Assembly: GCF_030463565.1 (NCBI RefSeq)
Contig: NC_134675.1
Location: 12,607,862 to 12,671,861, forward strand
Length of the DNA: 64,000 bases
Origin: Pelecanus crispus
Lineage: Eukaryota; Chordata; Aves; Pelecaniformes; Pelecanidae
Direction: 5' to 3'
This document shows, one piece after another, positions 2,845 through 51,053 of the stretch. The notes beneath the pieces were generated by a model. The model did no database searches and had not been told where the DNA came from. It saw only the letters and a list, made by a program, of their open reading frames with translations. Numbering within the stretch: position 1 is the stretch's first letter; every line of letters begins with the position of its first letter. Made by a program: the position numbers and the translations under genes.

Positions 2845-3136
2845 TGATGACTGTTTGAGGTTATGGTGACATTGTTTACCTTAGGAAGAAATGTACTAAA
2901 GATAATAGACACCAGGATATCTATAATAAGGAGCAGAAGGCCAAGAAATCTCTAAAACAACAGACATATATCCCTGAGTGTCAAAACTCCTCTCTACTCC
3001 TCTTTTACTAGTCAGCAAGATCCAAGAATTGGTGTCCCCTAAGTGAACCAGCTAATTGTAATACGAAAACCACACCTCTGTTGGAAGAGCTACCCACCCC
3101 CAAAGGGAGACCCTTACCCACTGAGCACGCGTAGTG
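2845..3136 (+). mobile_element. 3' LTR of the class I provirus, left part (U3)
   Basis: It begins TGATGACTG right after the polypurine tract and carries U3-like sequence until a CR1 takes over near 3137. The rest of the LTR continues at 4833. Confidence 0.8.
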
Positions 3137-4832
3137 ATTTTAAAGGGAGTCTTCACTGGCAACCTCTCTCCTCACCCCTCCCGAGTCGATGGACCGCAAG
3201 ATGGGGACCAGGGGGGTAAAGCCCCTCCCACTGTAAGGGAAGATCAGGTTCGAGACCACCTGAGGAACCTCAATGTACACAAGTCTATGGGACCTGATGA
3301 GATGCATCCCAGAGTCCTGAGGGAATTGGCTGATGTAGTTGCCAAGCCACTCTCCATGATATTTGAAAAGTCATGGCAGTCCGGTGAAGTCCCTGCTCAC
3401 TGGAAAAAGGGGAATGTTGTGCCCATTATTAAAAAGGGAAGAAAGGAGGACCCTAGGAACTACCGACCTGTCAGCCTCACCTCTGTGCCTGGGAAGATCA
3501 TGGAACAGATCCTCCAAGAAGCTATGCTCAAGCACATGGAGGACAGGGAGGTGATTCGAGACAGCCAGCACGGCTTCACCAAGGGCAAGTCCTGCCTGAC
3601 CAACCTAGTGGCTTTCTATGAAGGAGTGACTGCATCAGTGGACAAGGGAAAAGCAATGGATGTCATCTACTTGGATTTCTGTAAAGCGTTCAACACAGTC
3701 CCCCACAACATCCTTCTCTCTAAATTGGAGAGATATGGGTTTGATGGGTGGACTGTTCGGTGGATAAGGAATTGGCTGGATGGTCGCATCCAGAGGGTCG
3801 TGGTCAATGGCTCGATGTCCACATGGAGACCGGTGACAAGTGGTGTCCCTCAGGGGTCCGTACTGGGACCGGTGCTATTTAACATCTTCATCAATGACAT
3901 AGACAGTGGGATCGAGTGCACCCTCAGCAAGTTTGCAGATGACACCAAGCTGAGTGGTGCCGTTGACACGCCAGCAGGACGTGATGTCATCCAGAGGGAC
4001 CTGGACAAGCTGGAGAGGTGGGCCTGTGTGAACCTCATGAGGTTCAACAAGGCCAAGTGCAAGGTCCTGCACCTGGCTTGGGGCAACCCCCGATATCAGT
4101 ACAGGTTGGGGGATGAAGGGATTGAGAGCAGCCCTGTGGAGAAGGACTTGGGGGTACTGGTGGATGAAAAGCTGGACATGAGCCGGCAATGTGCGCTTGC
4201 AGCCCAGAAAGCCAACCATATCCTGGGCTGCATCAAAAGAAGCGTGGCCAGCAGGTCGAGGGAGGTGATTCTGCCCCTCTACTCTGCTCTGGTAAGACCT
4301 CACCTGGAGTACTGCGTCCAGCTCTGGGGCCCTCAGCACAAGAAGGACATGGACCTGTTGGAGCGGGTCCAGAGGAGGGCCACAAAAATGATCCGAGGGC
4401 TGGAGCACCTCTCCTATGAGGCCAGGCTGAGAGAGTTGGGGTTGTTCAGCCTAGAGATGAGAAGGCTGTGAGGAGACCTTATTGCGGCCTTCCAGTACTT
4501 AAAGGGGGCCTATAGGAAGGATGGGGACAATCTTTTTAGCAAGGCCTGTTGTGACAGGACAAGGGATAATGGATTTAAACTAAAGAAGAATAGATTTAGA
4601 CTAGACATTAGAAAGAAGTTTTTTACAATGAGGGTGGTCAAGCATTGGAACAGGTTGCCCAGAGAGGTGGTAGAGGCCCCATCCCTGGCAACATTCAAGG
4701 TCAGGTTGGATGGGGCTCTGAGCAACCTGATCTAGTTAAAGCTGTCCCTGCTCACTGCAGGGGGATTGGGCTACATGATCTCTAAAGGTCCCTTCCAACC
4801 CAAAGCATTCTATGATTCTATGATTCTATATG
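3137..4832 (+). mobile_element. CR1 LINE copy inserted in the LTR, nearly intact ORF2 C-terminal two thirds
   Basis: A 1.7 kb CR1 body ends in the CR1 3' UTR and the terminal repeat ATTCTATGATTCTATGATTCTA at about 4807-4829. It is 5' truncated within ORF2. Its 3' UTR (4740-4829) is the closest match in the window to the tail of the SINE at 18963-19110. The element interrupts the LTR, so it is younger than the provirus. Confidence 0.95.
3140..4735 (+). pseudogene. CR1 ORF2 reverse transcriptase, 5' truncated, one nonsense codon
   Basis: The continuous frame reads as a LINE reverse transcriptase. It has [13 protein letters not shown], then [28 protein letters not shown] (the palm aspartate), [17 protein letters not shown] and the FADDTKL catalytic motif near 3930. 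The C-terminal region ([22 protein letters not shown], then the GDLIAAFQYLKG segment) follows. A TGA at 4469-4471 replaces an expected CGA arginine, the usual CpG decay. After it the same frame runs on to a TAG near 4733-4735. Apart from that codon the visible two thirds look undamaged. The N-terminal endonuclease is missing. Confidence 0.92.
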
Positions 4833-18962: not shown

Positions 18963-19110
18963 AGCCGGGTTAGCTCAGTTGGTTAGAACACGGCGCTAAT
19001 AACGCCAAGTTTGCAGGTTCAATCCCTGCTTACTGCAGGGGGGTTGGGCTCAATGATCTCTCAAGGTCCCTTCCAACCCAAAGCATTCTATGATTCTATG
19101 ATTCTATGAT
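18963..19110 (+). mobile_element. tRNA-Ile-headed, CR1-tailed SINE
   Basis: The first about 65 bases fold as a tRNA-Ile. A box TAGCTCAGTTGG is at 18971-18982. The anticodon stem GGCG/CGCC encloses the loop CTAATAA with anticodon AAT at 18998-19000. B box GGTTCAATCCC is at 19016-19026, within a perfect GCAGG/CCTGC T stem. Instead of the 3' acceptor strand the sequence switches into a CR1 3' UTR that closely matches 4747-4829 and ends in ATTCTATGATTCTATGATTC. The switch falls on CCCTGC, present in both parents. It keeps a type 2 pol III promoter and a CR1 recognition tail, the logic of a SINE mobilised by CR1. A tRNA-Ile/CR1 SINE (TguSINE1) is known from songbirds; identity with it is not tested. 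Confidence 0.93.
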
Positions 19111-50877: not shown

Positions 50878-51053
50878 GTCATAGAATCATAGAATGGTTT
50901 GGGTCAGAAGGGACCTTTAGAGATCATCTAGCCCAACCCCCCTGCAGTGAGCAGGGACAGCTTTAACTAGATCAGGTTGCTCAGAGCCCCATCCACCCTG
51001 ATCTTGAATGTTTCTAGGAATGGGGCCTCTACTACCTCTCTGGGCATCCTGTA
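50878..51053 (-). mobile_element. CR1 3' fragment
   Basis: Minus-strand CR1 terminus (ATAGAATCATAGAATGGTTT) and about 175 bp of 3' UTR and ORF2 end, related to the subfamily of 3137-4832. Confidence 0.9.

Follow-up and report, generated by a model that had tools for sequence, protein, structure and literature searches.

The window analyzed here (the whole 64-kb stretch of DNA, positions 1 to 64000, part of contig C45 of a 1.314-Gb assembly, G000) contains a 148-nt tRNA-Ile/CR1 SINE at 18963-19110, recognized as such by its tRNA head, promoter boxes, CR1 3' end, hairpin, 8-bp repeats, and many dispersed copies (Table 1). The copy is nearly full-length; relative to the common GACC leader, two bases are missing from its 5' end. 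The original prediction described a tRNA-Ile(AAT) head that carries both boxes, A and B, and leads into a CR1 3' UTR, and both halves of this description were borne out. Rfam matches a tRNA at 18964-19037 (39 bits, gathering threshold 29, E 1e-4), its only match in the window, and the AAT anticodon and both boxes could be located, the boxes from motifs that we take to be those of pol III promoters. ARAGORN called no tRNA gene in the window. The sequence is CR1 from 19027 onward, and within the window the SINE tail is most similar to two CR1 tails, 4754-4829 and 50948-50879. The first of these tails belongs to a LINE copy with a 445-aa open reading frame (3134-4471), which by eye we take to be reverse transcriptase-like. 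Many further long repeats and retroelement-like open reading frames, CR1- and LTR-element-like by eye, occur in the window, as expected of a W chromosome.

Excerpts of PMC5729268 assign the CR1 3' hairpin a role as reverse transcriptase binding site and describe an 8-bp microsatellite at the CR1 end. The predicted RNA fold of the whole SINE consensus does not stand out from shuffled sequence (z -1.43; 20 of 200 shuffles do as well or better).

Table 1. Features of the SINE copy, its CR1 relatives in the window, and tRNA-Ile fusions elsewhere in the assembly
Feature	Coordinates	Strand	Basis
Whole SINE copy, subfamily S6	18963..19110	+	Best 40 of 1,598 genome matches near full length, 95-100% identity
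tRNA-Ile(AAT)-derived head, ending in shared TCCC (19023-19026)	18964..19026	+	Rfam RF00005; tRNA-query matches end at position 63
Pol III A box TAGCTCAGTTGG	18971..18982	+	Sequence
Anticodon AAT (isoleucine)	18998..19000	+	Rfam alignment
Pol III B box GGTTCAATCCC	19016..19026	+	Sequence
CR1-derived tail	19027..19110	+	94.7% to CR1 tail 4754-4829, 91.4% to CR1 tail 50948-50879
Predicted hairpin GGGTTGG...CCAACCC, presumed CR1 reverse transcriptase binding site	19041..19079	+	Predicted consensus fold
ATTCTATG repeats, three units plus AT, CR1 priming end	19085..19110	+	Sequence
CR1 LINE copy of a possible partner family, its tail the nearest to that of the SINE	3134..4829	+	Tail match
Another CR1 tail of this type, with TGTCCCTGCTCACTGCAG where the SINE has its join	50879..50948	-	Tail match
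L114, full-length tRNA-Ile fused to 5'-truncated CR1 ORF2 sequence	C1:176152409-176152482
L118, full-length tRNA-Ile fused to 5'-truncated CR1 ORF2 sequence at another point than L114	C1:218994772-218994845

Copy number, insertion hallmarks, and age of the family

With up to three mismatches, a 23-mer of the junction occurs once in the window and in none of 100 shuffles. Allowing at most two mismatches, the junction pattern occurs 2,235 times in the genome (1,186 and 1,049 on the two strands), and the same pattern read backwards occurs on neither. The chimera that was predicted from one locus thus represents a family. We rejected a single chimera on this count, and a chimeric insertion spread by segmental duplication, with no SINE involved, has next to no probability given junctions on both strands, varied flanks, and 5' truncation.

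We drew two samples of copies. When the 148-nt copy was used as a genome query, the best 40 of 1,598 candidates were scored; each of these aligns almost end to end at 95-100% identity and has the same head, join, and tail, and this first sample is biased toward copies like that of the window. The second sample comprises 40 further copies with an exact junction, taken in order along contig C1 from 3.1 to 25.8 Mb (two already in the first sample were omitted), a choice that favors intact junctions. Of the 67 copies long enough to include the A box, 60 have it in identical form; the B box is identical in 77 of 80 copies, 40 of which were chosen for an exact junction that includes the B box. Because most copies are so young and half were chosen in this way, box identity is not evidence of selection.

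Insertion hallmarks are mixed. The leader before AGCCGGG in the first sample reads TGACC in 17 copies, GACC in 6, ACC in 4, and CC in 2, and is missing from 11; 33 of the 40 copies in this biased sample start within 3 nt of the full 5' end. The corresponding number in the C1 sample is 17 of 40, the other 23 being shorter. Among the latter, 14 start between reference positions 8 and 13, which makes a second group of 5' ends at the A box or slightly upstream of it, and nine start elsewhere. Partial 5' truncation of this kind is what target-primed reverse transcription should yield. Target-site duplications are seldom clear: flanks match over at least 8 nt in two of the 40 copies of the first sample. 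The mean flank match is 4.45 nt versus 4.03 nt in 500 shuffles, four of which reach 4.45, so that any target-site duplication signal is at most weak.

The copies fall into a ladder of subfamilies, in which diagnostic positions shift stepwise from AGAGCGTGG/GGTCACGGG/CTCACT/CTAGATG to AGAACACGG(T or C)G/GTTCACAGG/CTTACT/CTCGATG. We named the steps S0 to S6, and the last one, S6, includes the window copy. This order was presumably produced by source copies that were active one after another. Divergence from the nearest step was calculated without the first 11 positions, the tail past position 128, the junction, and diagnostic and CpG sites, which leaves about 80 sites per full copy. In the C1 sample it is 3.44% for S0 (n=9), 0.70% for S1 (n=4), 0% for S2 (n=6), 2.55% for S3 (n=12), 0.75% for S4 (n=5), and 0.64% for S5 (n=4); 35 of the 40 copies lie less than 3% from their own subfamily and 5 lie more than 3% away. 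The scored matches, a biased sample, give 3.75% for S2 (n=1), 0.50% for S3 (n=5), 0.50% for S4 (n=10), 0.45% for S5 (n=11), and 0.87% for S6 (n=13). S6 is therefore not the least diverged group despite its last place in the ladder, and S3 probably still mixes finer groups. At a rate of roughly 2e-9 changes per site and year, the family would have been active until recently, starting perhaps 15-20 million years ago.

The tRNA-Ile/CR1 join and other tRNA-Ile fusions

CR1 reads TGTCCCTGCTCACTGCAG at the join (TGTCCC|TGCTCACTGCAG), and we take tRNA-Ile to read GATCCCCGTACGGGCCA there (GATCCC|CGT), with which the sequences of L114 and L118 agree around the join. As the two differ beyond TCCC, only these four bases (tRNA positions 60-63) are common to both. 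Among the matches to a 74-nt tRNA-Ile query, 38 of the best 40 of 1,318 end exactly at position 63, and one head among these 40 (L121), which represents the nearly exact tRNA-Ile at which the ladder begins, is still tRNA-Ile at 100% over positions 11-63 (53 nt). The original prediction had proposed a template switch at the microhomology CCCTGC, thought to be common to the end of the tRNA T stem and to CR1. Template switching remains the best account of the join, and we place it at TCCC. We rejected CCCTGC, which CR1 has but tRNA-Ile does not: TCCC is shared with the tRNA, and TGC is already CR1. The T stem looks complete because the CR1 bases TGC by luck pair with its 5' strand. Four or five of its five pairs form in 79 of 80 copies; the perfect GCAGG/CCTGC stem of the window copy is found in six of the 80, and ACAGG/CCTGC in 66.

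We propose that, in the founder event, CR1 reverse transcriptase would have left CR1 RNA at TCCC in the 3' UTR and continued on a tRNA-Ile(AAT) primary transcript from the TCCC of the T arm. The founder would have retained the 5' leader (GACCA) and both pol III boxes, and the insert could then have been transcribed by pol III from its own boxes. Its RNA would be recognized by CR1 reverse transcriptase through the hairpin and the ATTCTATG end, and successive source copies would have given rise to the present ladder. Pol III transcription of the SINE and its mobilization by CR1 are likewise proposed.

The only full-length tRNA-Ile matches among the best 40 are L114 (96%) and L118 (89%). In these the tRNA is followed by 12 and 17 nt, respectively, with T-rich stretches (CTCTTTT and TCTTTCTTCT) and then by CR1; the reverse transcriptase sequence that follows is 92% (L114) and 89% (L118) identical to other CR1s of the window, and L114 continues to a CR1 3' end. 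Both resemble what a jump from CR1 RNA to a tRNA-Ile primary transcript, at its 3' end, would leave. A canonical tRNA-Ile 3'-half pattern with up to two mismatches finds three places in the genome (L114, L118, and C2:135000761), against one for the backwards control, and reveals no ordinary tRNA-Ile(AAT) gene in the assembly. For this reason L114 could also be a CR1 insertion beside a real tRNA gene; the real tRNA-Ile(AAT) genes may be unassembled or divergent. At the third place (L129), the tRNA-Ile 3' half stands right before a stretch 69-82% similar to LTR-like sequence of the window, and Rfam called no tRNA there.

Placement of the host and origin of the family

SINEs are rare in birds. 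Excerpts of Suh et al. 2017 (PMC5729268) describe TguSINE1 (tRNA-Ile/CR1-X) and PittSINE (tRNA-Asp), and trace the tRNA-Ile/CR1 type back to one birth early in passerine history: TguSINE1 is reported there from Eupasseres only, its activity having ended in oscines before their radiation, with longer activity inferred for suboscines.

In a tree of interferon sequences (55 of 120 listed rows, 185 columns; here and in the RAG1 and ND2 comparisons, unnamed metagenome rows, two in RAG1 excepted, and many close relatives were removed by hand), the 16 sampled passerines form one clade (100/98) with the host outside. AU tests reject the host with suboscines (p-AU 0.003) and with oscines (0.046). They do not reject the host with Eupasseres (p 0.125), though the log-likelihood is 25.9 lower, or a clade of the host with all passerines (p 0.245), which covers the sister position too. 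The interferon tree thus does not place the host in Eupasseres, short of proof. RAG1 gives a weaker indication of the same kind: over aligned columns the host is 96.0% identical to Dromas, its closest match, versus 92.2% to a songbird model, in a comparison of 10 of 120 rows that include two metagenome rows and one songbird row from an incomplete model (BLAST 96% over 64% of the query). Support around the host in the RAG1 tree is weak. The host therefore seems not to be a songbird, and the inference drawn in the original prediction for that case, an independent birth or an older origin, applies. That the host is a passerine after all and the family a late TguSINE1 is very improbable in light of these trees and tests, even though a suboscine would fit the recent activity, given the longer suboscine activity inferred in the excerpts of Suh et al. 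2017 (PMC5729268), and the grouping with Eupasseres, tested on one gene, is not formally rejected. Contig C1, at 228 Mb, is moreover too long for chromosome 1 of passerines, which is split.

Two further observations concern the loci surveyed for placement. The interferon-like sequences include a tandem array at C46:10442347-10594434 (37 matches at intervals of mostly about 3.92 kb, the majority within an open frame of some 575 codons). Several copies of mitochondrial COX1 inserts lie on a small contig (C29:1.59-2.80 Mb, L061-L068) and make up 17 of 18 COX1 matches. ND2 beside one of them matches at best 84% among the birds listed, for which reason the insert looks old; a tree of 41 of 120 rows groups it weakly with Pelecanus (88/65), and ND2 thus does not place the host.

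We consider it likely that the copies represent a young, CR1-mobilized SINE family of a non-passerine bird, founded by a template switch and separate from TguSINE1. Given how young the copies are, we favor independent birth. The same tRNA and the same LINE clade would also be expected if the family were TguSINE1 itself or its direct ancestor, older than the split between passerines and the host, dormant for a long time, and active again here of late. The primer published for TguSINE1, CAGTTGGTTAGAGCGTGGTG in the excerpts of PMC5729268, is identical to the oldest heads (the window copy differs at 4 of 20 bases), but it is plain tRNA-Ile sequence and does not discriminate. We regard such a revival as unlikely, since the oldest subfamily is only 3.4% diverged (n=9) and the head of L121 has kept full identity to tRNA-Ile.

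With independent birth as the preferred reading, a tRNA-Ile/CR1 SINE in a bird that is apparently no songbird means that such elements were probably born more than once in birds; a young family of like make-up, in a host beyond the passerines sampled, would have arisen by convergence. We raise, tentatively, the broader possibility that bird CR1 reverse transcription is prone to jump onto tRNA-Ile transcripts, the only tRNA examined here, so that tRNA-Ile/CR1 SINEs are born repeatedly. TguSINE1 would then be one birth and the present family a second, and L114 and L118 hint at two jumps that founded no SINE. A second tRNA-Ile/CR1 family makes the question of why tRNA-Ile testable, and some two thousand insertions, many of them young, are usable as phylogenetic markers.

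Comparison with known systems

In the literature searched we found no tRNA-Ile/CR1 SINE outside passerines; Ottenburghs 2021 (GBE evab016) may describe one. Excerpts of Galbraith et al. 2021 (PMC8665684) cite Suh 2017 and Ottenburghs 2021 for the statement that only some birds have CR1-mobilized SINEs. A highlight article on the latter study (PMC8044554) puts the tRNA-like sequences within transposable elements at hundreds to thousands in some bird genomes and names no species. Scans of genome-contig and viral-contig collections returned 0 and 0 junctions; the TguSINE1 primer had no match in the viral-contig collection and matched one bacterial contig in the genome-contig collection, without a tRNA there.

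The closest known element is TguSINE1 of the zebra finch, which, in the excerpts of PMC5729268, agrees with the present family in its tRNA-Ile head, in the hairpin of its CR1 tail, and in its ATTCTRTG end. Numbers are also similar, at about 2,000 SINEs per oscine and 2,500 per suboscine genome (same excerpts) versus 2,235 junctions here. Host range and age differ: TguSINE1 is reported from Eupasseres only and as extinct before the oscine radiation, whereas the host of the present family is placed outside the sampled passerines and the subfamilies show 0-3.4% divergence. PittSINE of Pitta, with which TguSINE1 shares four tail nucleotides against CR1-X1_Pass, likewise carries a tRNA head on a CR1 tail, for which a template switch is proposed, but its head is tRNA-Asp (excerpts of PMC5729268). 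The tortoise pol III SINE (tRNA-Lys/PsCR1, excerpts of PMC3747384) is alike in its tRNA head and CR1 tail and differs in its tRNA, tRNA-Lys, and in its turtle hosts. ManaSINE1 and other AviRTE SINEs (excerpts of PMC4844689) are similarly lineage-specific with borrowed heads, but are mobilized by RTE and not by CR1.
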